A stretch of DNA of 13,636 nucleotides from an uncultured Methanomicrobiales archaeon (GTDB lineage: Archaea > Thermoplasmatota > Thermoplasmata > Methanomassiliicoccales > Methanomethylophilaceae). The notes beneath the pieces are model-generated. The model saw nothing but the letters and a program-made list of their open reading frames with translations, was not told the DNA's origin and searched no databases. The position numbers were made by a program, and so were the translations under genes. The stretch covers positions 1 through 13,636 of the forward strand of contig CAMMYR010000005.1 in assembly GCA_946528255.1 (NCBI GenBank). Reading direction: 5' to 3'. Positions 564-13,636 of this stretch are shown in pieces (positions within the stretch are counted from its first letter, which is position 1; the number at the start of each line of letters is the position of its first letter).

Positions 564-809
564 TTATTCACTGTGCCAGACTCGCCGAAGTGCCTTTTCG
601 GGCATCTTCGCATCATCCATCTCCGATTGATCCTCCTCCATGAAGTCGAACGCCCTCTTCCCCCGGAGGAATCTCATACAGTAATCGCCGAGCCCGGTCA
701 GATACTGGATCTCGTCCCAATTGAAACCGTATTCCCGCAGTCTCCAGGCAACCTCCAGTTTCCCTTGGATATACATGACACGGTCCCTGCTTTCAGATAT
801 GTCGCTCAT
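564..809 (-). CDS. Free-standing Rpn C-terminal domain, copy C (diverged)
   Basis: A small protein starting MSDISESRDRV that aligns with the C-terminal domain of the nuclease upstream: GKLEVAWRLREYGFNWDEIQ, then TGLGDY and RAFDF match GKLEVALQMWRNGCSWGFIK, TGLNDY and KFDF. It is much more diverged than copy B, so it is an older duplicate that stayed open. I chose ATG 809 because GGAG lies 9 bases upstream; the frame extends to ATG 854, but that start has only an adjacent AGG. The conventional TAA is at 564-566, and an in-frame CGA lies just before it at 584-582. There is no catalytic nuclease domain. The helix-turn-TGL module resembles the C-terminal region of Rpn/PDDEXK-transposase family proteins. 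Possible role: inhibitor of the nuclease, or remnant. Confidence 0.55.
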   Translation of the reverse strand: MSDISESRDRVMYIQGKLEVAWRLREYGFNWDEIQYLTGLGDYCMRFLRGKRAFDFMEEDQSEMDDAKMPEKALRRVWHSE

Positions 810-843
810 TACAGACATCTCCGATCTCTCCCAGTGTATTGCT

Positions 844-1083
844 TCGGTACTCATCCTGGGGGAAGTCGAACACTTCCTCCCTCCAGATGTAGCTCAGGAT
901 GTAGTCGTTAAGTCCGGTTATATCCTTGATGAAATCCCAACTGCAACCTCTCCTCCACATCTGCAGGGCATCTTCCAGTTGCCCGTTGACGAACATGTAG
1001 TCGTCCCTGTCTTTGGATATGCTGTTGAATTCTATCATGTACCTTTCCACCCCTCTGTCCATCTCTATTCCGAGGTTCTCCAT
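844..1083 (-). CDS. Free-standing Rpn C-terminal domain, copy B
   Basis: A 79-residue ORF from ATG 1083 (MENLGIEMDRGVERYMIEFN) to an in-frame CGA at 846-844, repeating the last 79 residues of the nuclease gene at about 87% identity. Under the standard code the frame runs on to a TGA at 793-795, overlapping copy C. It lies 25 bases after the CGA end of the nuclease ORF, in a different reading frame because the repeat period (265 bp) is not a multiple of three. A TGA just upstream in its own frame means it cannot be a continuation of the nuclease by simple readthrough. The Shine-Dalgarno is weak (GTGAGG, about 18 bases upstream). It may be translated alone as a nuclease-free domain, or be a recent non-functional duplicate. 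Confidence 0.5.
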
Positions 1084-1361
1084 CCCCGCCCTGCGGTCTT
1101 TGCCTCACTCGTTCCTCATCCTGTGGGAAGTCGAACTTTTCCTCCCTATAGATGTAGCTCAGGATGTAGTCGTTAAGTCCGGTCATATCCTTGATGAAAC
1201 CCCAACTACAGCCATTCCTCCACATCTGCAGGGCAACTTCCAGTTTCCCGTTGACGCGCATGTAGTCACCGTAATCTTTGGATATGCTGTTGAATTCTAT
1301 CATGTACCTTTCCACCCCTCTGTCCATCTCTATTCCGAGGTTCTCCATCCCGGCCCTGCGT
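844..1361 (-). repeat. Tandem duplication, 265-bp period, of the Rpn C-terminal coding region
   Basis: Positions 851-1096 and 1116-1361 align without gaps at a constant offset of 265 bp, with about 22 mismatches by eye. About 75 bp (roughly 1011-1085 against 1276-1350) are identical, while the rest carries almost all the differences. A third, much older copy lies at about 641-815, offset 220 bp from copy B. Neither 265 nor 220 is a multiple of three, so each copy is read in a different frame. Confidence 0.9.
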
Positions 1362-1957
1362 TCTTCCTCTCCGATCCCCGTTCCCATGGCCCAATCAAGC
1401 ATTTCCAGCAGGCGCGGGATGCCCTCTTCCCTCGGATCCCCGAGGCATATGACGAATATGCGATCGGAGTCCTCATCGGGGAATCTCGCCCCGCCGTTCC
1501 CGAATACCGGGAACTCCGTGAAGCGGAACTCGCGGATGGTGTTCCCCGTTCCTTCGGGCGGATGCATCAGTATCCATATACTGTATGTTCTGTCTTTACA
1601 TATATATTTGTATGATGAAGAGCCCCCGATTCCGCGCTGCTTCCATCCCAGTTCCGCGGAATACATCTTGGCGCGGAGGAGGAGGTAGGATAGCGGGTAC
1701 GGGTTGTTCTGCGGCTCGAGATCGAACCAGAGCCTCACCGTGCCACCGTCCCCGGGGAGCCTGGCCTCGATGATCAGGTCCTTTCTCCCGTTCCCGAAAT
1801 CGTTCTCGATCCCGGGAACCACATCCTCATCCCCCAGCAGAGCCTGCACGCTCTGCTTGTCCATTCCCCTGCATTCGGGCACCAGACCCATGAGGAATTC
1901 GGCGGCGATCGTCCTCAGATGGAGGAATCCCTTGGCCGCCTCGTCCCTCTGCTCCAT
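1109..1957 (-). CDS. Rpn-family PD-(D/E)XK nuclease (recombination-promoting nuclease / putative transposase family)
   Basis: The PD-(D/E)XK core is visible: GRKDLIIEARL supplies the first Asp, and WFDLEPQN supplies the E-x-Q pair. The downstream RAKMYSAEL and TYSIWILM segments are also characteristic of this family, as in E. coli Rpn proteins and the so-called PDDEXK transposases. After about residue 200 comes a separate helical C-terminal domain (MENLGIEMDRGVERY to FDFPQDEE). The start is ATG 1957, with AAAGGT 4 bases upstream; ATG 1975 is in frame but has no good ribosome site. Homology ends at a CGA codon at 1111-1109. Under the standard code the frame continues to 908, translating copy B out of frame into an arginine/glutamine-rich tail. 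An internal ATG at 1348, preceded by GGAGAGGAAG, could start a short C-terminal product. Family call is secure; activity is inferred. Confidence 0.8.
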
Positions 1958-1993
1958 GTCAACCTTTCCGGTCATGGATGCTTACGTTCCGTC

Positions 1994-2008
1994 CAAGTTT
2001 ATAACTTG
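1994..2008. promoter_or_regulatory. Perfect palindrome CAAGTT-TAT-AACTTG in the rpn leader
   Basis: A 6-3-6 inverted repeat lies between the rpn TATA box and its start codon, at or just after the expected transcription start near 2025. Position and symmetry suit an operator for a dimeric repressor. No regulator is identified. Confidence 0.45.
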
Positions 2009-2046
2009 ACTACTGTACGGTTACACTTCGCTCCCGCACTGCGAGA

Positions 2047-2056
2047 GTATATAAAC
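2047..2056 (-). promoter_or_regulatory. TATA box for the rpn cluster
   Basis: GTTTATATAC on the minus strand is a near-ideal archaeal box A, placing transcription start near 2025. It would lie inside the priS coding frame if priS ran to its first conventional stop (1999), which argues that priS really ends earlier. Confidence 0.6.
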
Positions 2057-2163
2057 AACCCCTCGAAAAGCCGCGTTTCGGCGAAGTTCGAACCGGGCCT
2101 GAAAACCAGCCAGTATCCCGGGAACCACCGTTTCCATTGGAGAGGCGGAGCGGATCCGACCAA

Positions 2164-3399
2164 TCGGAACATCTTGTCCTTCTGGCTCTCCTCGGACAGG
2201 TATCCGTAGTCCGCCATCTTCCTGCCCACTAGGAATACCGCGGCGAACTCGGGGACCTCCGTCTCGCCCTTGAGGGAGAAATGCTGCCCGAGCATGTCGA
2301 GCTGCGAGTCCCTGCGCATGGTGATCTTCACCGGATCGTCGCCGTACTCCTTGGGCACGGCCATCTGCAGGGGGTCGAAATCCGTCAGCTCCTGCCTGGT
2401 TATGGGGGTGACCCTGAGCCCGCTCTTCCCGTGCACGGAGCCGGGGAGCCTGATCAGCCTCTTGATGTCCGCGGTGACGGGTTCGTCGACCTCTCCGGAG
2501 AGCCTGTAGGCCACGTCCTCCTTCATGATCTTCACCAGGATGTTCTGGGTGCTGGGGGACAGCATGACCATGGTATTCTTCTCGAACATGGCCTTCCCGT
2601 TCTTGGACACCTCCTTCTTGGCCTGATCCAGGAACGACGTCTTGGTGCCCTTCAGGCTAGGGTATTCGGCCTTGATCTCCGGGAGGTCGTTCTCCTGGAT
2701 GAACTGCACCGTATCCTTCAGGCCGTTCCTCATCCTGAGCTTCCACCCGCCGGAATCCGCCGGCGGTATGAGGCGGTCCTCGTTGACCTTGGTCTTGGTG
2801 CCGGCGGCGGTGGATATCTGGGCGCCGGCGGTCCTCACTATGGGGAATATCCAGTCGATGTCCATGCCGGAGCATGTGATGTAATCCACCAGCTCCCTCC
2901 TCTCCTGGGTCCCCAGGGACATGATGTCCGGGGTGCGGACGTGGGCGTGGTACCCCCTGCCCCCGGAGAATGTGATGTGGACCTGGTCCTCGGAGAATCC
3001 GAGGTCCCCCAGCAGGAAGGAGTCCACCAGGTTGATCATCTCCGATCTGATCTGAAGGAGCATCTCCGCGTAGGTCATCTCCTTGGCGCCGTCCAGGTGG
3101 TCGGCGTCCAGGTCGAAGATCAGCTCCGCTCCGAGCCACTCCTTCTCGTCCATGGTGGGCGCGGCCGGCTTCCTGTAGTAGGATGTGGAGTAGTAGGAGT
3201 GGGCCGGGACGTTGCCGATCATGTACCTCCTGAGGTCGTCGCGGTTCGCGAATCCCAGATGCCTCTGGACGAAGGACTTGTCGAAGAACATGAATCCGAA
3301 CTCCCTGCGGGTGAACCTGTCCGGCAGGATGGGCGTGTTGGCCCGGTAGTACTTCCTGAACGATTTCAGGAGGAAGCGCTGGTTCGAATCCATCTGCAC
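2164..3399 (-). CDS. priS: DNA primase small (catalytic) subunit PriS
   Basis: PriS makes the RNA primers for archaeal DNA replication together with PriL. The catalytic FDLDAD motif (Asp96, Asp98 counted from the GTG) is present, with SGGRGYH at 145-151, the third catalytic region around VDEPVTADIKR (304-314) and RLPGSVHGKSGL (317-328). The family end VPEFAAVFLVGRKMADYG is followed by LSEESQKDKMF and then an in-frame CGA at 2166-2164. Length to that point is about 411 residues, slightly long for PriS. Under the standard code the frame continues 54 codons further to 1999, through a tail with no primase similarity that crosses the rpn TATA box. The start is GTG 3399 or ATG 3393; a TATA element about 26 bases upstream suggests an almost leaderless mRNA. 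Confidence 0.93.
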
Positions 3400-3418
3400 G
3401 GCTCATCTCGTAATAGGT

Positions 3419-3426
3419 TGATATAG
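3419..3426 (-). promoter_or_regulatory. TATA box for priS
   Basis: CTATATCA on the minus strand lies about 26 bases before the GTG 3399 / ATG 3393 pair, so transcription would start at or next to the start codon (leaderless). Confidence 0.45.
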
Positions 3427-3509
3427 ATGTTCTACGCCCCCGCTAATCGTCATACCTTTTTGCGAAACCGATTAAACCGTCATGGGGGATTAGGGTCCGG
3501 AGGAATCCG

Positions 3510-4340
3510 ATGGCGGCCCGCGTACCGGCTTACGACAACCACTTCCACATGAGCCCATCCGGCAGGAACATCGACGCCCTGAAGGAGTTCGAGGCCGCCG
3601 GGGGCACCGGTATCACCCTGGTCACGCTCCCGTATGCGGAGGTCCCGATAAGGGATGCGTCCGATTTCGCCGATTCATTCGAGATAACGTTCAGGCTGGC
3701 CGAGAGGGCCAGGGAGGAGACCTCCCTGGAGGTCAACGTGGCCGTCGGGCCGTATCCGATAATCCTCCTGGGATTGGCGGAGGCCTACGGCCTGGATAGG
3801 GCCGAGGAGATAATGATCGGAGGGATGGAGATCGCCGCCAGGGCCGTGGAGGAGGGCAGGGCGGTCGCCATGGGCGAGATCGGCAGGCCGCACTTCCCGG
3901 TCCCCGCGGAGATCTGGGACGCTTCGAACAGGGTCCTGGAGAGGGGTTTCGAGCTAGCGCGCGAGGTCGGATGCCCGGCGATCATCCACTGCGAATCCGA
4001 TGCGGATACGATGTCCTCGCTCGGTGCGATAGCCGACAGTGCCAGGCTCCCGAGGGAGATGGTGATAAAGCACCACTGCGACCCGCTGGTGACCGATGAG
4101 GAGACCAAGGGCCTGATGCCATCGATACCCGCTTCCAAATCCTTACTGAAGGAGGCGCTGCCCAAGGGCAACCGCTTCATGATCGAGACCGATTACATCG
4201 ACGATCCTTCGAAGCCGGCCATGATGATGCCGCCGGCGACGGTCCCGAAGAAGGTTGCCGCATGGGTGGCGCAGGGGGTCCCCGAGGAGACGATCTTCAG
4301 GATCAACAGGGACATACCGGAGCGCTACTATAACAGGCGA
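3510..4340 (+). CDS. TatD-related metal-dependent hydrolase
   Basis: A TIM-barrel hydrolase of the amidohydrolase/TatD type. Expected metal ligands are all visible: His11 and His13 in DNHFHM, Glu123 in MGEIGRPH, His160 in AIIHCESD, His188/189 in IKHHCD and Asp228 in IETDYIDD. Family members are divalent-metal hydrolases, some acting as DNases; the substrate here is unknown. ATG 3510 has a strong GGAGG at 3499-3503. The barrel ends with TIFRINRDIPERYYNR, the usual TatD C-terminus, and the next codon is CGA (4338-4340), giving 276 residues. The conventional stop is a TAA at 4386-4388 after 15 more codons (NPAGCLASCSNGRVN) that look non-homologous. It is divergent from priS and transcribed alone. 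Confidence 0.85.
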
Positions 4341-4388
4341 AACCCCGCAGGATGCCTGGCTAGTTGTTCCAATGGTCGTGTGAACTAA

Positions 4389-4433
4389 GGAAACGTATCA
4401 TTTTGGGAAAAAACAAACCTCGGAAACGTATGA
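4389..4433. repeat. Direct repeat GGAAACGTAT spaced 33 bp
   Basis: GGAAACGTATCA (4389-4400) and GGAAACGTATGA (4422-4433) recur with a 33-bp start-to-start distance, about three DNA turns, in an AT-richer intergenic stretch between the TatD-like and MBL genes. They could be sites for a regulator of the MBL gene, whose TATA box lies about 90 bp further on. The remainder of 4341-4561 shows no gene. Confidence 0.35.
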
Positions 4434-4524
4434 TCACGACCAAGTCAGATGCTCACTCAACTCGTTTGTCGCAATCAGGTCAAAAAACCCTCCGCTCCCT
4501 CACCGCGGCGAACTCCTTCGGCTA

Positions 4525-4533
4525 ACTATATAC
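4525..4533 (+). promoter_or_regulatory. TATA box for the MBL-fold gene
   Basis: ACTATATAC lies 29-37 bases before ATG 4562. The expected transcription start is near 4556, leaving a leader of only a few bases, consistent with the absence of a Shine-Dalgarno. Confidence 0.55.
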
Positions 4534-4561
4534 GAGATAATCAGGATAGGCTCCCGATAAG

Positions 4562-5302
4562 ATGGTCACTATCAGGTGCGTTTACGACGAGGGCGCCATC
4601 GAGGACACCCCTCTGATCGGTGCCAAAGGCACATCCTTCGTCATCGAATCCGAAGGGAAGAGGCTGATGTTCGACACCGGTCTCCGCCACAGGTACCTCA
4701 TACACAACATGGAGCACCTGGAGATCCCCGTGGATTCCATTGACGCCCTGGCGATATCGCAGACCAATCCCGACAACTGCAGGGCCCTCGGCGGCTTCCT
4801 GGAGGCGAGGGAGTCCCCCGTGGACGTCTACTGCCCCGCGGAGCTCCGCATCGCGAAGAAGGGGCTGTTCGGCAAGGGCGTATCCGAGGAGGCGTCCCAG
4901 AAGGCGGTATTCAAGGATGAGGAGGGCTGGATCGAGATGATCCCGAAGGTCTGGCTCTCGCCCAGGATGGAATACACCAACGGGTACTCGGAGAGGTTCC
5001 TCGCTATCGACGGTAAGAAGCTGGCCCTCGTCAGCGGCCGCTGCATGGCCGGCCCCGATGTGATCCTGGCGGAAGCCGCCGCCAAGTTCGGGAGGAAGCC
5101 CTCGATGTTCGTGGGGTCGCTGCTCCTGGTCAAGAAGATGAAGGAGGAGGCGTCTCGCTACGCACAGCAGTTCACCGATATGGGGGTCTCGGACATATAC
5201 CTCAACCACTGCACCACGCCCGAAGCCATGACCAACCTCAGGGTGATCCTCGGGCTGAGGGGCGTCAAGGATTTCTATGTGGGCGAGAGCCTGGAAGTGC
5301 GA
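4562..5302 (+). CDS. Metallo-beta-lactamase-fold protein with degraded metal site (probable pseudo-enzyme)
   Basis: The scaffold matches MBL-fold hydrolases related to the dihydropteroate/RFAP-type group: TSFVIESEGKRLMFDTG (24-40), IDALAISQTNPDN (60-72), LALVSGRCMAG (155-164) and IYLNHCTTPEA (212-222). In active relatives the second block reads S-H-x-H-x-D-H; here it is S66-Q-T-N-P-D-N72, so all three histidines are replaced. The later GCsHpG and GGfHL positions read GRCMAG and GSLLL. Only Asp71 and the His216-Cys pair remain recognisable. A catalytic zinc or iron site is therefore unlikely, and a binding or regulatory role is more plausible. The protein should end at FYVGESLEV (246 residues), where CGA lies at 5300-5302, followed 2 bases later by a hairpin. 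The conventional TAA is at 5342-5344, 14 codons further. Confidence 0.75.
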
Positions 5303-5304
5303 AC

Positions 5305-5317
5305 CCGCCTACGGCGG
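5305..5317 (+). terminator. Short hairpin directly after the MBL gene
   Basis: CCGCC-TAC-GGCGG forms a perfect 5-bp stem two bases after the terminal CGA, before an AT-rich stretch. It lies inside the coding frame if translation continues to TAA 5342. Weak as a terminator because no clean T-run follows. Confidence 0.35.
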
Positions 5318-5335
5318 TACGGTCCGTTTCATGAA

Positions 5336-5349
5336 AATATTTAAATAAA
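5336..5349 (+). promoter_or_regulatory. TATA region for htpX
   Basis: AATATTTAAATAAAA is a strong AT-rich box A candidate. A start 26 bases downstream falls at about 5369, next to the ATG at 5370; an AGGTG element (5359-5363) is also present for any longer leader. It probably drives htpX-MATE-hemK. Confidence 0.55.
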
Positions 5350-5369
5350 AAGTATGTTAGGTGTTCACT

Positions 5370-6245
5370 ATGTCATTCTGGCGTCTCAGAACAGCGAGCA
5401 TGTTCGTTGCCATGACCCTCCTGCTCATAGCGGTGGGGGCACTGGTGGGATACTTCGTGCACAACGTGTACTACGGCATGCTCATAATGATGGCCGTGGG
5501 CATCCTGTTCAACCTCTACGCCTACTTCGGATCGAAGTCAATGGCGCTGAGGGCGAACAAGGTGCACCTCATCACCCGCGACGAGGAGCCCAGGCTCTAT
5601 GACACCGTGCAGAGGCTCGCCGAGAAGGCCGGCCTCCCCATGCCCGAGGTCGGGATCTCCGAGGTCCCCATGCCCAACGCGTTCGCCACCGGCAGGAACC
5701 CCAAGAACGCGGCCGTGGTCGCCACCAGGCCGCTGCTCAACATGCTGACCGACGAGGAGCTGGAGGGAGTGATAGCGCACGAGCTGTCCCACGTGAAGAA
5801 CAGGGACATCCTCGTCATGTCCGTGGCCGCGACCATGGCATCCATCCTGTCCTACGCGGTGACCATGACCATGTGGTCCCAGGTGTTCAACAACAGGGAC
5901 AACGGAGCCGGCCTGGCCATAGCCGTGGCGGCATACATCCTCGTGCCCATAGCGGCCATGCTGGTCCAGCTGGGGGTCTCCAGGAACCGCGAGTACCTGG
6001 CGGACGAGACCGGGGCGAGGCTCACCGGCAAGCCGATGGCCCTCGCCAGCGCGCTCACCAGGATCGAGGGCGGATGCTCCAGCAGCAACAACGATTACAA
6101 CAGGACCGCCTACGAGAGCCTGTGGATCGCCAATCCCTTCGGGGAGAAGAAGAGCGTCATGGTAAGCCTCTTCCGCACCCACCCCACCACCGAGAACCGC
6201 ATCGCGAGGCTCAGGGAGATCGACAGGGAGCTGAACGGCTACCGA
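5370..6245 (+). CDS. htpX: Membrane zinc metalloprotease HtpX (M48 family)
   Basis: HtpX is an integral-membrane protease that degrades misfolded membrane proteins. Two N-terminal membrane helices (about 10-30 and 36-54) precede the protease domain with HELSH at 137-141 (zinc ligands His137 and His141, catalytic Glu138). Two further helices (about 148-170 and 180-203) are followed by NREYLADE (206-213), which supplies the third zinc ligand Glu208. The C-terminal block THPTTENRIARLREIDRE is the usual family end. ATG 5370 is chosen over GTG 5361 because AGGTG sits 6 bases upstream. After LNGY the next codon is CGA (6243-6245), giving 291 residues. Under the standard code the frame runs to a TGA at 6351-6353, overlapping the MATE gene by 94 bases. 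The MATE ribosome site GAAGGA begins immediately after the CGA. Confidence 0.92.
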
Positions 6246-6259
6246 GAAGGAAAACTCAT

Positions 6260-7633
6260 ATGGACACCTCGAAAGACCTGGAGACGATGCTGGGGAACCC
6301 CCGTAAGGCCATCCGCTCGATGGCGGTCCCCCTGCTGGTCTCCTTCCTGGTGATCCAGATAAACATGTTCGTGGACACCGCCTGGTGCTCCGGACTGGGT
6401 TCCGATGCGAGCTCCGCGGTGTCCACGATAGTCCCCATCTATTGGATCATTAGCGGCGTGGGCACGGCCGTAGGAGTCGGTGCATCCACCGCCATAGCCA
6501 GATGCCTCGGGAGGCACGATAAGGCCCAGGCCAATTCCCTCGCGGCGCAGACCGTGATCATCACACTGGCGATATCCCTCGCATCGATCCCGGCGATCTT
6601 CGTCCTCATAGACCCGGTCATCTCCGTCATAGGCGCATCGGACATCCGCGACCTCTGCTTCTGGTACATCCTGCCGATAATCCTGATGTCGGTGTTCATC
6701 ATGATGGAGGGCGCCCTGGCCGGGATCATGAGGTCCGAGGGCGCGGCCAAGAAGGCCATGTCCATGCTGATCGTCTCCGCATGCGTCAACCTCGTCGTGG
6801 ACCCGTTCCTCATCTACACCATGGACATGGGCCTGGAGGGGGCCGGGTGGGCCACCGGGATATCCGCGGTGGCATCGACCGCCCTGGGGCTGTACTGGCT
6901 ATTCTCGAGGCACACCTATCTGACCCCCTCGCTCAGGGGGATCCGGTTCAGGAGGTCCGAGGTATCGGACATAATGTACGTGGGATTCCCGAAATCCGTG
7001 GAGACCATCCTCATCGCCTCCATGTCGCTGATACAGAGGATATTCGTGGTGGCCGTGGGAGGGGTCCTCGGCGCCATGCTCTACAACATCCCCTGGAGGT
7101 ACGTCACGCTGGCCTGCGTGGTGTCCCTGGCGGTCTCCTCCGCATTGGTCCCTGTGTGCTCCGCGGCCCTCGGGGCCAGGGATACGGCCAAGGCCATGGA
7201 CGGGTATCTTTACTCAGTGAAGCTGACCGCAGGGATCATGGCATGCGTCGCCGTGGTGACGTTCGTCTTCGCGGAGTTCCTGATGATGCCCTTCACCTAC
7301 TCCCCCACGATGGAGGAGCTGAGGCCGGAGCTGGTGCACGTCCTGAGGATCTACTCGCTGCTGATAGTGTTCATGGGCATGATCGACATAGGATCGGCCA
7401 TACTGCAATCGCTCAGGAAGGCGGCCATATCCATGTGGTCCGCATTCGTGAGGAACCTGTTCCTGATCGGCCTTCTGTACATAGCCAGCGGCATATCGAT
7501 GGATGCCGTGTACTGGGCCGTGGTGATCACGGAGGCCTTCGGGGCCTTCATCATGCTGTACCCGGCGTACATCGCGGCAAGGAACTATTCCAGATTGAAT
7601 CCGCCGCAGAGGGGGGATGCCGACGGAGTACGA
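6260..7633 (+). CDS. MATE-family multidrug/Na+ (H+) antiporter
   Basis: A polytopic transporter with about twelve hydrophobic helices in two six-helix halves. The N-terminus GNPRKAIRSMAVPLLVSF, then FVDTAWCSGLGSDA and the repeated half beginning VGFPKSVETILIA, is the standard MATE layout. Members expel drugs and organic cations using an ion gradient; the substrate is not predictable. ATG 6260 follows GAAGGA with 8-base spacing and lies 14 bases after the htpX CGA, so the genes are co-transcribed. Hydrophobic homology stops at AARNYSRLNPPQRGD; CGA follows at 7631-7633 (457 residues), overlapping the first codons of hemK. Under the standard code the frame stays open to 8188, adding about 184 residues that are only the shadow of hemK in another frame. 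Confidence 0.9.
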
Positions 7634-8192
7634 TCCGTCGATAACCATAGAGGGGGATCCCGATGTGTACCCCCCGTCCGAGGACAGCATCCTCCTCATA
7701 GAGTCACTGGATGTCCGCCCGGTGGAGAGGATCCTGGAGATCGGATGCGGTTCCGGAGTGGTATCGTTGCATTGTGCCAGCAATGGATGCCGTGTGGTAT
7801 GCGGGGATATCAATCCCAAGGCGGTGGAGCTCACCCGCAGGAACGCGGAGGCCAACGGATTGGATGTCTATGCTGTGGAGACGGACGTCTACAGCAACGT
7901 GGAGGGGGTGTTCGACACCATAGTGTTCAACCTCCCCTATCTGCCTGTGGAGGAGGAGGGGCTCCTGGAGAAGGCATGGTCCGGTGGAGCGGACGGCCTG
8001 GGGCCGTTCCCGAGGCTCCTGGAGGGCGCGGGCGAGCATTTGGAACCCGGCGGCAGGCTCGTGGTGGTGGCGTCGTCCCTCACGGATCTGGATGCCATGG
8101 GATCGTTGATTGGTGGTATGAAGTGCGAGGTCATCGGCAGGAAGCACATGTTCTTCGAGGACATGGTGGTGCTGGAAATCCGTCCTGATCGA
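7617..8192 (+). CDS. HemK/PrmC-related SAM-dependent methyltransferase (archaeal Mtq2-like)
   Basis: A compact Rossmann methyltransferase: VYPPSEDS N-terminal signature, SAM-binding ILEIGCGSGVVSLH, acidic GDINPKAVEL, then the catalytic motif FNLPYLP, an N-(L/P)-P-Y variant of NPPY. The short HemK2/Mtq2 group in archaea and eukaryotes methylates the GGQ glutamine of release factor aRF1/eRF1, usually with Trm112; that role is inferred from family and size. ATG 7617 follows an AGAGGGGGG stretch and overlaps the MATE 3' end by 17 bases. Family similarity ends at FFEDMVVLEIRPD, and CGA is next (8190-8192), giving 191 residues. The conventional stop is a TAG at 8274-8276 after 27 codons antisense to the convergent ATPase gene. 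Confidence 0.85.
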
Positions 8193-9178
8193 TCGTTGAT
8201 GATCCATGTTCCCTTGCGGTTGGTTCCTTTCCTGGATATCCTGCCGGAGTCCATAAGCGCCCTCATATTGGCGTAGACCTTGTTGCGATCCACTCCGGTC
8301 GACTCGGCTATCTCGTCTATCGTTATGGCGCCGTTCTGCGATATCAGCCTGATGATCTCCGATTGCAGGCCGCCCGGATTCGCGATTCTCAGATCGATGC
8401 TCACCACTGTTCTGGAAGGCTTGTGCTCCTGTATGATCTCCGGTGCATGGAAACCCGCAGACTTCAGCGCGGCTATGGATCTGTACACGCCTGTTCCCGC
8501 CCTTTCGGATCTCCCTATGAGGCCGAACATCCTGAACAGCGTCGGGTTCCTCGTACTGCTGATGCCGCCGCTGACAGCCCTCCCCACGGGTATCCTGAAC
8601 AGTCCCGGGTTCGCTATGGTCAGCGATCCCGGGCGCATATCGACCGCAACCCCTGTCTCCCCTGCGTAATCCGCATGCATCAAGGCATTCATCAGGAACT
8701 CGCGGGCCGCCTTCCGGAGGCTGTTGTCCTCCACCCTTATCATCGACCTATCGAATTCCAACGGTTCCGGGAGATTCCTCCAGATCCTCTCTGATACCCT
8801 TGTGAAGAATTCGAAGAGGTTGTCACATTCCCCCGGGCGCATAGAGCTTATGCGATCCGTCCAATCGGGACCGCCCAATCCGTATTCCTTGTAGTCAAGG
8901 AAGTAATTCGGGAACACCCTGGTTGTATAGAGACTGCTACAGAACATCAGCGCCCCGGCGGCTGTAGGATGCAATACGCCTTCGGATGCCCCGGCGGCAC
9001 CCATTATCTCCAGGAACCTCTCGTCCGGGAGGTCGTTGAGCTCGCTTTTAGGGTTCTCGAGCCTGTATTCTCTGCGGTATTTTTCCACCGTTCCGACATC
9101 CATTGCCTCCATGGGGATCTCCGAGAGCGGTATGTTGTCGCGCATAGGGTTCTGTGCTTCCCGCACCATTCCAGGCAT
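8189..9178 (-). CDS. RecG/AlbA_2-type ATP-binding protein (divergent AAA-4 / HATPase family) without AlbA_2 domain
   Basis: The protein matches the central and C-terminal parts of the RecG-like/Schlafen AlbA_2 regulators: TAAGALMFCSSLY, FPNYFLDYKEYG, REFLMNALMHADYAGETG (GHKL-like N box), GLIGRSERAGTGVYRSI (GxG loop), then a C-terminal winged helix (about 275-325) ending NRKGTWIIND. These usually carry an N-terminal AlbA_2 DNA-binding domain, absent here because coding begins at the linker before KYRREYRL. ATG 9178 is chosen for the GGAGGAGGAG 7 bases upstream and a TATA box about 45 bases upstream; the frame is open to 9322 through AT-rich, non-homologous sequence. Homology ends at an in-frame CGA (8191-8189; 329 residues). 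The standard-code frame runs on to a stop at 7937, antisense to hemK. Confidence 0.78.
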
Positions 9179-9221
9179 CGTAGGGCTCCTCCTCCAGAGG
9201 GTGTCACACATCTTAGTCCAG

Positions 9222-9230
9222 TAATATACT
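9222..9230 (-). promoter_or_regulatory. TATA box for the ATPase-like regulator
   Basis: AGTATATTA on the minus strand would start transcription near 9200, leaving a leader of about 22 bases that contains the GGAGGAGGAG ribosome site. This supports ATG 9178 over upstream in-frame starts. Confidence 0.5.
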
Positions 9231-9248
9231 ATTTTGTATTTATTTGAT

Positions 9249-9290
9249 TTCGTTTGAAAATCGTTTATTTCCAAATAAACTCGAAACGAA
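9249..9290. promoter_or_regulatory. Nested palindrome upstream of the ATPase-like regulator
   Basis: GTTTATTT-CC-AAATAAAC (9263-9280) is a perfect 8-2-8 inverted repeat, and an outer pair TTCGTTT (9249-9255) / AAACGAA (9284-9290) surrounds it. It lies 33-68 bp upstream of the regulator TATA box in an AT-rich island, a reasonable place for autoregulatory binding. The rest of 9179-9460 (about 280 bases) shows no credible gene. Confidence 0.5.
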
Positions 9291-9429
9291 TGGGCGATAT
9301 AATCGGAGTGCCAGCATTGCAACTTCTATCATTCTACAATGCATTCCGCCATGAACCTTTCCGGATGCCGCAACTCAGAACGGATCTGTCCGAATAGGTC
9401 TGAGCGGTTGCCTATGGGCCTCCGCAACC

Positions 9430-9441
9430 TTTTTTATATAG
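9430..9441 (+). promoter_or_regulatory. TATA box for the Zn-ribbon / aEF-1beta operon
   Basis: TTTTTTATATAG is a strong archaeal box A about 26 bases upstream of ATG 9461, predicting a leaderless mRNA. An earlier ATG at 9450 is in another frame and opens no long ORF with family similarity. Confidence 0.65.
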
Positions 9442-9460
9442 GTAGTTTAATGGCTCGCGC

Positions 9461-9628
9461 ATGGCAACTGATAAGATCTGCTCATCCTGCGGCAAGAGGC
9501 TCGTCGGAAGGGGCAACACATTCTTCAAATGCCCCAAGTGCGGCGCCACCGAGATCGGAAGGTGCGACCAGTGCCGCGACCAGGGCGTCAGCTACGAGTG
9601 CAAGAAGTGCGGATTCATCGGACCGTGA
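9461..9628 (+). CDS. Small Zn-ribbon RNA-binding protein (COG2888-type, translation-associated)
   Basis: A 55-residue protein with four CxxC-like knuckles: CSSC, CPKC, CDQC and CKKC, enough for two zinc ribbons. This family of very small archaeal Zn-ribbon proteins is described as RNA-binding and translation-linked and is often encoded next to aEF-1beta, as here. ATG 9461 is placed by the TATA box. It ends in a true TGA at 9626-9628, 5 bases before the aEF-1beta start, so the two are an operon. The start codon is upstream of any detectable Shine-Dalgarno, consistent with leaderless translation. Confidence 0.88.
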   Translation: MATDKICSSCGKRLVGRGNTFFKCPKCGATEIGRCDQCRDQGVSYECKKCGFIGP

Positions 9629-9633
9629 TTGAC

Positions 9634-9909
9634 ATGGGACAGATCGTCGCACAGTATGACATCATGCCCGAGAGCACCGACGTCGACCTCGACGCGGTGA
9701 TCCAGAAACTCCCGTCCATCCTCCCCGCGGGCGTCAAGCTCATGGATGGCGAGACCAAGATCCTGCCCGTCGCCTTCGGACTCATGAAGGTCAACGCCGG
9801 ATTCATCATCGATGACTCCGACGAGATGGCCGGCAGCAAGCTCGAGGAGGCCCTGGCTTCCATCGAGGGCATCGAGACCGTGTCCTGCACGTCCTCGACC
9901 AACCTCTGA
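9634..9909 (+). CDS. ef1b: Translation elongation factor aEF-1beta
   Basis: aEF-1beta is the guanine-nucleotide exchange factor that recharges aEF-1alpha with GTP. The 91-residue protein has the expected short alpha/beta fold: YDIMPESTDVDLDAVIQKL, LPVAFGLMKVNAGFIIDD, then LEEALASIEGIETVSCTSST at the C-terminus, as in other archaeal aEF-1beta. ATG 9634 follows the Zn-ribbon stop by 5 bases with no strong Shine-Dalgarno, suggesting coupling. It has a conventional TGA at 9907-9909 and a strong terminator hairpin 10 bases later. Confidence 0.93.
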   Translation: MGQIVAQYDIMPESTDVDLDAVIQKLPSILPAGVKLMDGETKILPVAFGLMKVNAGFIIDDSDEMAGSKLEEALASIEGIETVSCTSSTNL

Positions 9910-9919
9910 AACTCACAAC

Positions 9920-9946
9920 GGGGCCCCCGGCCCCTTTTACTTTATT
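9920..9946 (+). terminator. Terminator of the Zn-ribbon / aEF-1beta operon
   Basis: GGGGCC-CCC-GGCCCC (9920-9934) forms a perfect 6-bp GC stem followed by TTTTACTTTATT, a good intrinsic-type terminator. Confidence 0.65.
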
Positions 9947-9981
9947 CATCGTGGCCCGGAAAGGCCATCGGAGGCGCTCCC

Positions 9982-11136
9982 ATGAGGATAGTCATGATGA
10001 CCGACAGCTACTTCCCCACGCGCGACGGGGTCGTGACTTCCATCTGCACGATCAAGGAATCGCTGGAGGAGAGGGGGCACGAGGTCATCATCGTCGCCCC
10101 GGAGCCCGAGCCCGACAAGAGGCAGGAAGGCGTCTATTACTTCAAGGCCATCAAATTCCGCTCCTACGAGGGCTATTACGTTCCCATATTCCCCACGGAC
10201 AAGATGAACCTCATGAGGAAGCTGAAGCCCGATGTGATCCATGTGCACGGGGTGGCCACCATGGCCGTCCGCGCCCTGATGATCGGCCGCGAGCTGGGGA
10301 TACCCACGGTCATGACCTTCCACACCATGGTGGACGATGCCGCCCTGTACTATCTGCCGGTGAAGCTCCCTCCGGAGCTGGGCCAGAAGCTCATCTGGAC
10401 CTATCTGAGGCAGATCCTGAAGAGGTTCGATGTCGTGGTGACCCCGACGGCATGCATCGGCGCGGAGCTGGAATCCCGCGGCGCCCATTGCAGGCATCTG
10501 ATGGCGGTCCCCACCGGGGCCAAGACCGACGTTTTCCGCCCCGGGCTCCCCTCGGAGGGGATCAGGGAGCGCTACGGTCTGGGGGATTCAAAGGTCATCG
10601 TCCACGTGGGGCGCGTGTCCTACGAGAAGAACATCGACATGGTCATCCGCGCCATGCAGCACATCGACGCGAAGCTGCTGGTGGTCGGCAAGGGGCCGGC
10701 GATGGATGACATGAAGGCGCTGGTCTCCGAGCTCGGGCTCGGGGATAAAGTGACATTCACCGGCTTCGTCTCCGACGAGGAGCTTCCTCTGGTCTACAAC
10801 GCGGGCGATATGGTCGTATCCGCATCGAAGTTCGAGACCCAGGGCCTCACGATCCTGGAGGCCATGGCCACCGGGAAGCCGGTGGCGTGCCGCAACGGCA
10901 GGGCGTTCGCCGAGATCGTCACCGACGGCGTCAACGGGTACCTGTTCGATGACGACGAAGGTTGCGTAGAGGCCATCAAGAAATGCCTCGAAGCCCCTCA
11001 GTCCGTTCTGGACGCATCGTACGCGACGGCGATGGCCAACTCCAGGGAGAAGTCCGTCGAGGGCTACGAGAACGCCTACAGGACCGCTATAGAGGAGAAG
11101 GCGTCCCGCTCCGGGAAGAAGCGCCGCAAGGCGCGA
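9982..11136 (+). CDS. GT4-family glycosyltransferase (glycolipid / cell-surface glycan type)
   Basis: A GT-B fold retaining transferase. The N-terminal acceptor domain starts MRIVMMTDSYFPTRDGVV, the pattern of diacylglycerol- and phosphoinositide-type glycosyltransferases. The donor domain carries VHVGRVSYEKNID, LLVVGKGPAMDDM and the EX7E motif in FETQGLTILEA. It probably glycosylates a membrane lipid or polyprenol sugar; the exact acceptor is not predictable. ATG 9982 has GGAGG at 9970-9974. Homology finishes with a basic tail SRSGKKRRKA, and the next codon is CGA (11134-11136; 384 residues). The frame stays open to a stop at 11374-11376, translating the antisense of the neighbouring gene. 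The last base touches the end of the convergent nucleotidyltransferase, both ends sharing the palindrome CGATCG. Confidence 0.88.
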
Positions 11137-12159
11137 TCGGACGGTCCTTCCGCCGTAGATCTCCTCGCCCTTGCGGACGACGGTCCCGTCGGCCAGCACG
11201 GCATCGGTTATCCTGGCGCCCTTCTTGACGACGCATCCGTCCCCGAGGATGGTGTTCCTGAGATCGGCTTCCTCCACGACGCAGTCCCTCATGACGAGGA
11301 CGTTCTGGAGCTTGGAGCCCGTGACGGTGGATCCATGGAGCACCGCCACGGATCTGCAATCCGAGTCCTTGACTGATGATCCCGGTCCGACGTAGAACGG
11401 CCCTGAGACCTTGTTGGATTCCTTGTGCTCATCGGACCAGCCCTTCATCTCGTTGTCCGCGACGGACAGGTTGGCGCCCAGCAGGTCGTGGGGGCGGCCC
11501 ACGTCCATCCAGATGCCGTCGAGCTGGTATCCCTGGACCCTGCCGCCCTCGCTCATTATCCGGGGCACCAGGTCCTTGGAGAAGTCGAAGAATGTCTTCT
11601 CCGGCACGCGGGACAGGACATACTTGTTCAGGATGTACACGCCGGCGTTGATGAGGTTGGAGAAGACCTCCTCCTCGCGGGGCTTCTCCTTGAATTCAGT
11701 GATCCTGAGCTCGTCGTCCACCCTGGCGATGCCGAACTCGCAGGGGTTCTCGACGGGGGTCAGGGCTATGGTGATGTCGGCCTTTGTGGACAGGTGCTTC
11801 TCTATCTCCGCCCTGACGTCGATATCGGCGAAGACGTCGCCGTTGGCGGCCACGAACACATCGTCAAGCCTGGATTCGGCCAGCTTCATCGCCCCGGCCG
11901 TGCCCAGGGGCTCGTCCTCGTATGAGTAGATGATCCTGATGCCGAGGTCGCTGCCGTCGCCCAGGGCCTCCATGGCGCCGGGCTTGTACCCGCAGGCTAG
12001 GATGACCTCCTCGATCCCGGCGCGTGCCAGGGACCTGACCAGGTACCATATGCACGGCCTGTCGGCGACCGGGAGGATGGGCTTGGGGCGGTTCTCGGTG
12101 AGGGGGAGCAACCTGGTCCCCTTCCCTCCGACCATGACGATGGCTTGTCTGACCTTCAT
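11137..12159 (-). CDS. Sugar-1-phosphate nucleotidyltransferase with left-handed beta-helix C-terminus
   Basis: The N-terminal pyrophosphorylase signature GGKGTRLLPLTENRPKPILP (about 10-29) is complete, with NGDVFADID, FKEKPREEE and LINAGVYILN further along. From about 250 to 340 come hexapeptide-type repeats (SVAVLHGSTVTGSKLQNVLV and similar), giving the left-handed beta-helix of mannose-1-phosphate guanylyltransferase and glucose-1-phosphate uridylyl/thymidylyltransferase-like proteins. It supplies NDP-sugars; the base and sugar cannot be fixed. ATG 12159 begins the conserved KVRQAIVMV and lies 26 bases after a TATA-like element; the frame extends upstream to 12261 without homology. The protein should end at GEEIYGGRTV (340 residues), with CGA at 11139-11137. 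The standard frame runs to 10588, antisense to the glycosyltransferase, adding about 183 residues. Confidence 0.88.
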
Positions 12160-12280: not shown

Positions 12281-12317
12281 TGTGTGGATGGATGTTGAAC
12301 AAATAGGAGGATTTGAC

Positions 12318-12554
12318 GTGGAGAACGCAATGGTAATGCCTAACGAGTACACGGACATGTCGGAGACCGAGATGAACTACGATGGAGGATGGAGTTGGAA
12401 AACCTTCGTCGGAATCCTTGGGGTCGCAGCCGCTGTGGGGACTGCCGTGACCCTCGGCGGATATCTTATCACAGAGAGCGCCAAGTGGGGAGTCGCCGCC
12501 ATCTGCACTGGGTTGACGGCCGGTGCGCTCGGTGAAGCATACAACGAGATGTGA
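12318..12554 (+). CDS. Bacteriocin-like peptide precursor with double-glycine leader
   Basis: A 78-residue protein. The start is GTG 12318, set by AGGAGG 7 bases upstream; an in-frame GTG at 12282 and ATG at 12288 lie upstream but have no ribosome site. The N-terminal 25 residues end DMSETEMNYDGG, which fits the class II bacteriocin leader pattern (L/M-S-x-x-E-L/M...GG) cut after Gly-Gly by a C39-peptidase ABC exporter. The remainder, WSWKTFVGILGVAAAVGTAV and onward, is hydrophobic and rich in Gly and Ala with GxxxG spacing, resembling pore-forming bacteriocin peptides and holin-like helices. No transporter or immunity gene is visible next to it. It ends in a true TGA (12552-12554). The call rests on pattern, not on homology I can name; a plain small membrane protein is the alternative. 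Confidence 0.5.
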   Translation: MENAMVMPNEYTDMSETEMNYDGGWSWKTFVGILGVAAAVGTAVTLGGYLITESAKWGVAAICTGLTAGALGEAYNEM

Positions 12555-12711: not shown

Positions 12712-13636
12712 TCACTGGAATGCTCTGGAGCAATCCTCGATGTAGCCGTCGTCCATCATCTTGGCGGTCAGTCCCCTGGACCTCTTGATCATGAACTCGG
12801 CCCTGTCGTAGAGCTCCTGCCTGCTCAGCTTCAGCCTGGCGACACCCTGCTCCTGGGCCTTCATGGCCACGGCGACGGCCTCCTTGGGGAAGACGTCCAT
12901 CTCGGACATGGTGGGGATGATGTAATCCTCGCTGATACCCTTCTCCTCGGCGCAGGCGGCCAGCTGCTTGGCGGCGGCGATGCACATCTCGTCGGTGATG
13001 GTCTTGGCCCTCACGTCGAGCACACCGCGGAAGATGGCGGGGAATCCCATGGAGTTGTTGACCTGGTTGGGGAAGTCCGACCTGCCGGTGGCGAACACCT
13101 TGCAGCCGTGCTCCTTGGCCTCCCAGGGCCAGATCTCCGGGATGGGGTTGGCCGTGGCGAAGATGACGGGGTCGTCGGCCATGAGGTCCACGTACTCCGG
13201 GGGTATGGTGCCGGGGCCGGGCTTGGAAGCGGCGATGACGATATCGGCGCCCTTGAAGGCCTCCTTCATGCCTCCCTTCTTGCCGGCTCCGTTGGTCTTC
13301 TCGCAGATCTCCCACTTCTGCTTGAATCCGGCCTTGACGTCCTCCCTCTCGAGGTTGAGGATTCCCTTGGAGTCGCAGACGCACATGTTCTTGGGGCTGA
13401 AACCGGTGGCCAGCAGCAGCCTGGAGATGGCGATGGAAGCGGCACCGGCACCGATGATGGTGATCTGGGCCTCCTCCAGCTTCTTGCCGACGAGCTTCAT
13501 GGCGTTGATGGCACCGGCGACCTCCACGGTCGCGGTTCCCTGCTGGTCGTCGTGCCAGACGGGGATCTTGCAGTCCCTCCTGAGCTCGTCGAGGATGTCG
13601 AAGCACTTGGGGTTGGAGATGTCCTCGAGGTTGATA
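12712..13636 (-). CDS. NAD(P)-dependent malic enzyme, N-terminal part missing (cut by window edge)
   Basis: The frame is still open at 13636 and begins INLEDISNPKCFDILDEL, followed by IPVWHDDQQGTATVEVAGA, the malic-enzyme signature (usually DDQHGTA; here DDQQGTA). The NAD(P)-binding ITIIGAGAASIAISRLLL, then IVIAASKPGPGTIP and FATANPIPEIWP, complete the C-terminal domain. The enzyme decarboxylates malate to pyruvate, linking TCA-type intermediates to pyruvate and reducing power. The C-terminal end reads YIEDCSRAFQ and has a conventional TGA at 12714-12712, followed by a strong terminator. An ATG at 13527 in frame is internal, because homology continues past it to the window edge. Confidence 0.92.
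   Translation of the reverse strand, partial: INLEDISNPKCFDILDELRRDCKIPVWHDDQQGTATVEVAGAINAMKLVGKKLEEAQITIIGAGAASIAISRLLLATGFSPKNMCVCDSKGILNLEREDVKAGFKQKWEICEKTNGAGKKGGMKEAFKGADIVIAASKPGPGTIPPEYVDLMADDPVIFATANPIPEIWPWEAKEHGCKVFATGRSDFPNQVNNSMGFPAIFRGVLDVRAKTITDEMCIAAAKQLAACAEEKGISEDYIIPTMSEMDVFPKEAVAVAMKAQEQGVARLKLSRQELYDRAEFMIKRSRGLTAKMMDDGYIEDCSRAFQ

Follow-up and report, generated by a model that had tools for sequence, protein, structure and literature searches.

CGA as a probable fourth stop codon, with aRF1 as its likely reader, in an archaeal lineage near Methanomethylophilaceae

Sense codons that have become stop codons are known from mitochondria. In human mitochondria, AGA and AGG are stop codons read by mtRF1 (PMC9810596), and a sense-to-stop change of UCA and UCG is described for the mitochondria of sphaeroplealean green algae (PMC6821328). 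In cells, stop-to-sense and sense-to-sense changes are known, while the sense-to-stop cases that we found in the literature are mitochondrial. When bacterial and archaeal codes were screened with Codetta, CGA and CGG proved to be reassigned to amino acids in bacteria; according to the authors, the method is unable to detect new stop codons (PMC8629427). Here we analyzed a 13.6 kb stretch of DNA (contig CAMMYR010000005.1 of GCA_946528255.1, referred to as the window) from an archaeon near Methanomethylophilaceae, in which 11 genes and the short copy C of a repeat have an in-frame CGA at their terminal position. The nearest record is Thermoplasmata archaeon SIG8 (G001), whose PriS protein, the DNA primase small subunit, is 92% identical (L001). 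In the open-licence literature without preprints we found no published report of CGA as a stop codon in archaea, or in any cellular genome, and no report of odd codes in this archaeal order.

An initial annotation of the window offered three models, namely that CGA is an additional stop codon, that it is edited to UGA in the mRNA, or that TGA was converted to CGA in this one sequence. The first is the best supported. We consider it probable that this lineage uses CGA as a fourth stop codon at ends where relatives have TGA, the release factor aRF1 being its likely reader. As in human mitochondria, translation would be terminated by arginine codons that lack a cognate tRNA and lie at the ends of genes; the human case, however, concerns an organelle, two genes (COX1 and ND6) and a mitochondrial factor (PMC9810596), whereas here a cellular archaeal genome is involved, with dozens to more than 100 CGA-ended genes in the sampled part and a factor of the eRF1/aRF1 type. 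The green algal case is similar in the change from sense codon to stop with codon disappearance as the proposed drive, in the lack of a cognate tRNA gene (there for UCG), in release-factor changes and in a use that varies between relatives, but it is mitochondrial and involves serine codons and the factor mtRF1a (PMC6821328). In the Codetta cases, too, a new meaning is taken on by CGA and CGG, which are rare arginine codons, and tRNA(UCG) is missing in three of the clades, but there the codons go to amino acids, whereas here CGA is likely a stop (PMC8629427). If true, aRF1 of this lineage would be a naturally occurring release factor of archaea for which C is acceptable as first base of the codon.

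Homologous gene ends in relatives

PriS, cut at its CGA, was used as query and gave 80 loci in a species-level genome collection, whose genomes and loci carry G and L numbers, respectively. The homologous end of priS is CGA in seven of them (L001 of SIG8, L003, L004, L006, L025, L028 and L029), and in their close kin the very same codon is TGA; locus L074 is truncated. The records with a CGA-ended priS span the accession series SUTA, JAUNXZ, CASFYI, CALUHR, JAEEJP with JAEEKU, and JAFZXW. Since CGA stands at the same priS codon in several series, it is not an artefact of one sequence, and an artefact of one assembly was ruled out by these seven other loci, which come from several projects. The idea that TGA became CGA in this sequence is thus practically refuted, both by the seven loci and by many genes of SIG8 and of a relative, E16__bin99 (G004). 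More generally, we give a sequencing or assembly fault a negligible probability: CGA ends are found in frame at gene ends in records of several accession series, TGA is plentiful elsewhere, and the findings on tRNA and aRF1 concur. A wholesale T-to-C change in the window was also ruled out, as its two strands hold 413 TGA and 611 CGA trinucleotides.

A PriS tree was built from 62 rows, leaving out L036 and L063-L080 (none scored as CGA); the 24 rows containing every CGA case form one clade (100/99). The CGA label requires five changes within this clade and is absent outside it. Such scatter is what free exchange of TGA and CGA in the clade would produce. No relatives of PriS were found in the viral collection.

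The end codons of the other window genes were compared among up to 22 best relatives per gene. The TatD-like gene ends with CGA in L001, L002, L003, L008, L017, L025 and L028 and with TGA in most relatives; in the window, the Pfam TatD profile is matched to its end (253/253) at residue 275 of 276 ahead of the CGA. A gene which we take to be MBL-like, following the initial annotation, is CGA-ended in L001, L002, L003 and L025, and most others have TGA, or also TAA. For htpX and the MATE, HemK-like and ATPase genes, CGA is found at the end in L001. All GT4 relatives are distant, with at most 46% identity, and are uninformative on the end codon, and both relatives found for the nucleotidyltransferase (L012 and L028) have TGA at the homologous end. 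No relatives of the nuclease gene presumed to be rpn (a name likewise taken over from the initial annotation) or of its copies B and C were found in this comparison, so their ends were placed by reading frame.

Codon counts at gene ends and inside genes

About 402 kb of SIG8 and about 555 kb of E16__bin99 were sampled. In a coding-potential scan based on codon usage, in which CGA and stops were given zero weight, 299 genes of SIG8 ended with CGA in 129 cases, TGA in 121, TAA in 16 and TAG in 3, with 9 genes cut and 21 undecided. The same scan scored 437 genes of E16__bin99, of which 76 end with CGA, 291 with TGA, 18 with TAA and 3 with TAG (12 cut, 37 undecided). A stricter second scan, trained on each genome itself, gave CGA ends for 110 of 336 genes in SIG8 and 64 of 493 in E16__bin99. 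Ends were also fixed by orthologs, using as references frames with standard ends and dropping those with CGA in the last 12 codons or shorter than 80 amino acids. By this approach SIG8 has 29 CGA, 29 TGA and 2 TAA ends with 8 undecided (n = 68), and E16__bin99 has 13 CGA, 65 TGA and 2 TAA ends with 5 undecided (n = 85). Roughly two fifths of the SIG8 genes are thus CGA-ended (129/299; 29/68). A sister run with slightly different target and reference sets found 31 CGA ends among 73 in SIG8 and 13 among 91 in E16__bin99, and extended the finding to five other relatives (G002 4/15, G003 2/11, G005 4/12, G006 2/5 and G008 2/10). Exact coincidence with the reference stop was seen in this run for 28 of 58 CGA ends and 91 of 141 TGA ends. 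All-against-all homology counts (e.g. 40 CGA among 245 'body' arginine codons, L001) were discarded, since shadow frames and tails of run-on genes had distorted them.

Among frames that run on, CGA lies near the end of coding potential in 51 of 107 cases in SIG8 (10.8 expected) and in 31 of 80 in E16__bin99 (6.3 expected), although by ratio alone TTT exceeds CGA near these ends in SIG8 (9 against 1.5 expected). The next base is T after 42% of CGA ends in SIG8 (n = 129) and 61% in E16__bin99 (n = 76), compared with 28% and 32% after TGA; no other strong motif was seen around the CGA ends of these two genomes. A backup stop within 5 codons follows 23 of 74 CGA ends in E16__bin99 and 39 of 278 TGA ends (Fisher p 0.0017), an enrichment given no weight because a CGA just ahead of TGA may be mis-scored. 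SIG8 shows no such enrichment (17/122 after CGA, 18/115 after TGA).

Inside the genes examined, CGA is nearly absent. In bodies aligned to orthologs it makes up none of 1030 arginine codons in SIG8 and one of 1746 in E16__bin99, that one lying in the aRF1 gene. The outgroup values are 5/225 (G019), 4/244 (G020), 5/248 (G025) and 0/379 (G018). The coding-potential scan scored CGA as internal at 6 of 5264 arginine codons in SIG8 and 10 of 8244 in E16__bin99. Read by eye, all six of the former and nine of the latter are gene boundaries within the same frame or tails, the boundary type often lying a few codons ahead of the ATG of the next gene; the tenth of E16__bin99 sits in aRF1. The absence is therefore strict in SIG8 and near-complete in E16__bin99, where the ribosomal protein gene L18e adds one case outside the sample to that of aRF1. 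Two further CGA matches near the start of an alignment (L008 and L130) are of ambiguous status.

CGA might still be an ordinary arginine codon, the proteins truly having C-terminal extensions. By translation table 11 the frames are indeed open past the CGA, and long versions are present in the protein collection (PriS of 464 and 447 amino acids). But the frames of orthologs are closed by TGA exactly there, CGA is frequent in the tails (3.5% of their codons in SIG8, against none in the ortholog-aligned bodies), the window's tails run through neighbouring genes, and SIG8 yielded no tRNA for CGA. Real extensions were rejected on the TGA ends of orthologs and the CGA-rich tails, and we consider them very improbable. 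Judged from protein length, the two long PriS versions rather suggest that database annotations of this lineage contain wrong gene calls that extend past CGA. The PriS proteins P0001, P0002, P0059 and P0103 have 464, 447, 523 and 523 amino acids, respectively, against the usual 409 or so, lengths that resemble calls run on past CGA.

The second model of the initial annotation, in which C-to-U editing of terminal CGA codons in the mRNA presents UGA to the ribosome, fits the free interchange of CGA and TGA at the same site and the ordinary look of the codon motifs of aRF1. A frame-blind editing would, however, also alter NCG codons that precede A, and these are not markedly depleted: the share followed by A is 22% in SIG8 (NTG 26%, NCC 31%, NCT 16%), and a similar deficit is seen in G014, which is nearly without CGA ends (28%; NTG 30%, NCC 36%, NCT 15%). 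Nor does editing give a reason for the missing or damaged tRNA-Arg(UCG) described below. The model is thereby weakened, and we judge editing improbable as a whole. Its frame-blind form is disfavoured by these codon shares; a form dependent on the reading frame or on RNA shape may exist.

The tRNA-Arg(UCG) gene and the release factor aRF1

SIG8 gave 43 Rfam tRNA matches, all of which were read, with Arg GCG, CCG, CCU and UCU among them, and three further tRNAs (Pro-GGG, Trp and Tyr) were found otherwise. As to the loss of tRNA-Arg(UCG), considered in the initial annotation, the gene was not found in this nearest genome, neither among the 43 matches nor among the three extra tRNA genes, and a BLAST search of SIG8 with the tRNA-Arg(UCG) gene of E16__bin99 gave no match. 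The best match of SIG8 to a tRNA-Arg(UCG) model is the GCG gene. The same holds for G009, G026 and G078, from which no inference was drawn, G009 being incomplete (35 tRNA matches). ARAGORN detected no Arg tRNA on the early loci. An intron-bearing tRNA of SIG8 (C7:41813), called Ser at first, has a CAT anticodon by eye.

Where the gene was read in the clade, it has either a 31-39 mismatch (C-A or A-A) in the anticodon stem or C at position 33, which is universally U in tRNAs. C33 is present in the tRNA-Arg(UCG) of G013, G014, G015, G074, G077, G079 and G081 (L261-L265, L267 and L269), together with a 27-43 mismatch, and in that of G075 (L260), together with a T-G pair at 31-39. Eight outgroups have intact stems (G018, G019, G020, G023, G024, G025, G059 and G061), and in G022 positions 31 and 39 form a T-G pair. 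The damaged arms recall tRNAs with 4-bp anticodon stems, in which the uppermost or the lowest pair is lost and which have been discussed with regard to competition with release factors; that case, however, is tRNA-Trp(CCA) with UGA in bacteria, and the present one tRNA-Arg(UCG) with its cognate CGA (PMC13092985).

A different possibility is that CGA is unassigned, so that the ribosome stalls and a rescue pathway (e.g. Pelota with ABCE1) ends translation without recognition of the codon. It would agree with a tRNA-Arg(UCG) not found in SIG8 and damaged elsewhere, and with secondary, weak hits of the aRF1 profile in many genomes, which were taken for Pelota. But with about two in five SIG8 genes ended by CGA, aRF1 included, the load on rescue would be large. 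The next-base preference at CGA ends also speaks against it, as do CGA ends in relatives that retain the tRNA (G002, G003, G004, G005, G006 and G008). We regard rescue as quite improbable.

Changes in aRF1, a further point of the initial annotation, were found in SIG8. Near its NIKS motif, from which the human positions were counted, the protein has N69 and H70 in place of K and N in all 56 others compared. These two substitutions bear indirectly on the likely reading of CGA by aRF1. At human positions of about 20, 79 and 253, the aRF1 of the clade differs from the outgroups by A to D, M to A and F to V, SIG8 keeping A at the first. The aRF1 matches G088:C21:6196-7389 and G056:C10:9946-11139 contain an in-frame TAG and an in-frame TAA.

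In 25 of the 26 clade genomes read, CGA is also present inside the aRF1 gene, at the codon which we take, by count, to be that of the presumably invariant R81 of human eRF1 (20 residues after the N of NIKS). This count omits 6 of 40 loci as unreadable, G018 (no CGA there), and G002, G007 and G008 (no full match). In the aRF1 tree the 26 genomes form a clade (100/98). The remaining genome is SIG8, which has CGC at this codon and whose aRF1 is itself CGA-ended. The context is always [GT]CT CGA CT[CTA] AA[AG]. The preceding GCT and TCT are minority codons in E16__bin99 (490 of 12425 Ala and 158 of 8876 Ser codons) and in G077 (404 of 3451 Ala and 175 of 2568 Ser codons), and since they are fixed ahead of the aRF1 CGA, the context looks selected.

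Bacterial RF2 and an eRF1-type factor of Mimivirus are autoregulated by internal stop codons, mechanisms stated in the same source to be absent from archaeal homologs (PMC3521657). The likeness lies in an internal stop followed by C in the gene of the factor, CUU UGA C in RF2 and GCU/UCU CGA C here, and the Mimivirus factor has the same arrangement with other stop codons; the difference from RF2 is that here the codon is CGA and the frame continues in phase as arginine, without frameshift (PMC3521657). The conserved internal CGA would be the factor's own stop only if CGA is a stop. Unlike terminal CGA, which prefers T as next base, it is followed by C. On the evidence of the reading frame it is not a frameshift of the RF2 type and could at most be a readthrough switch. 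aRF1 may thus regulate itself through CGA.

With CGA as a stop codon, the following course would account for these observations. CGA would first have been nearly emptied as a sense codon, the tRNA reading it would then have decayed, and aRF1, perhaps always weakly accepting C for U at the first position, would have captured it. In genomes that retain the tRNA, CGA may be ambiguous, signalling stop where genes end but arginine within a small number of genes, with termination and arginine insertion competing. The internal CGA of aRF1 may act there as a feedback sensor: high aRF1 would halt its own translation after about 80 codons, and at low aRF1 tRNA-Arg(UCG) would read through. SIG8 has neither a detected tRNA-Arg(UCG) nor either of the two recurrent sense CGA (aRF1 and L18e), and CGA would therefore be a plain stop in the window branch, as judged from SIG8. 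We give slightly better than even chances to this fuller account, in which a fourth stop codon goes together with a CGA 'thermostat' in aRF1 and a weak tRNA-Arg(UCG) competitor in the sister branches, and relatives display each step. As the relatives are at different stages, the order of codon loss, tRNA decay and capture by aRF1 becomes testable.

Several findings weigh against these proposals. Regarding the counts, the second scan scored 15 internal CGA among 8687 arginine codons in E16__bin99 (by scan score only). The group of G014 and G077 is almost without CGA ends, both by orthologs (G077 0/33, G014 1/21) and in the second scan (0/136 and 1/65). As a measure of noise, CGA was scored at one of 59 ends in the outgroups G018, G019, G020 and G025, and at one of 75 ends in G013, G014, G015 and G077. 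Apparent sense CGA also occurs. It is found in L18e (L297-L311) within W-R-D in 11 of the 15 clade genomes read, the codon being CGT in SIG8, G005, G082 and G083, and in a gene of G010 that we take to be tiaS-like from its motif (L007, NPRLV-R-LNP). L18e of the outgroup G018 (L312) has CGA at W-R-D as well. In SIG8, a tRNA-Arg(UCG) with an intron, or one lying in a gap of the metagenome-assembled genome, could have been missed.

Further such points concern aRF1. Its NIKS and YxCxxxF motifs, which we take to be those that read the codon, look ordinary in the clade, and no clear structural reason for the reading of CGA is visible. CGA is found at the R81 codon in 5 of the 24 outgroup genomes read, preceded there by TCG or TCA. 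Ten relatives with a TGA-ended priS carry the same aRF1 CGA; since these and the G014/G077 group have it, it does not track the use of CGA as a stop, and it could be a relic. SIG8 is placed next to the other 25 genomes by the aRF1 tree but among them by the PriS tree, so it may either have lost the aRF1 CGA or never have had it.

Gene ends in the window

The ends of the window genes are listed in Table 1. An in-frame CGA was confirmed for each of the 11 genes named in the initial annotation, and also for copy C. Downstream of the rpn-like nuclease gene, its C-terminal part recurs as partial copies B and C (582-1112, minus strand), each CGA-ended. By table 11 the frames continue past CGA, copy C having the shortest run-on (6 codons) and MATE the longest (185 codons), and the tails cross neighbouring genes. 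In the recognised frames, none of the 248 arginine codons ahead of the first CGA is CGA, a count that is partly circular, the bodies being cut at the first CGA; one doubtful ORF (9339-9632) is omitted from the sum. Gene ends defined by homology are free of this circularity.

Table 1. Gene ends in the window (1-based coordinates; standard frames according to translation table 11).
Feature	Position	Strand	Evidence and remarks
Copy C (rpn C-terminal repeat), CGA end	582..584	-	Frame alone, no homolog found; next table-11 stop 6 codons on
Copy B, CGA end	844..846	-	Frame alone, no homolog found
rpn-like nuclease gene 1109-1975, CGA end	1109..1111	-	Frame alone; no homolog found, no Pfam match
priS (DNA primase small subunit)	2164..3399	-	Pfam PF01896; 92% identity to L001
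priS, CGA end	2164..2166	-	Exactly homologous end; same codon TGA in most close relatives
TatD-like gene 3510-4340, CGA end	4338..4340	+	Frame, relatives, Pfam TatD profile
MBL-like gene 4562-5302, CGA end	5300..5302	+	Frame and relatives; no Pfam match
htpX 5361-6245, CGA end	6243..6245	+	Frame, relatives, Pfam
MATE transporter gene 6260-7633, CGA end	7631..7633	+	Frame, relatives, Pfam
HemK-like methyltransferase gene 7617-8192, CGA end	8190..8192	+	Frame, relatives
ATPase/winged-helix gene 8189-9274, CGA end	8189..8191	-	Frame, relatives
GT4 gene 9982-11136, CGA end	11134..11136	+	Frame, Pfam
Sugar nucleotidyltransferase gene 11137-12159, CGA end	11137..11139	-	Frame, Pfam; TGA at homologous end in L012 and L028
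EF1-beta-like gene, TGA end	9907..9909	+	Frame, relatives
Malic-enzyme-like gene, TGA end	12712..12714	-	Frame, relatives; standard stop still in use

A small ORF (12282-12554) is also TGA-ended, and a prefoldin-like gene runs off the window edge. The HemK-like and ATPase genes are convergent and a single TCGA (8189-8192) is common to both ends, and those of the GT4 and nucleotidyltransferase genes abut back to back as CGATCG. Convergent genes with CGA ends at most 6 nt apart were seen in five pairs in SIG8, all abutting as CGATCG, and in two pairs in E16__bin99, one of them abutting.

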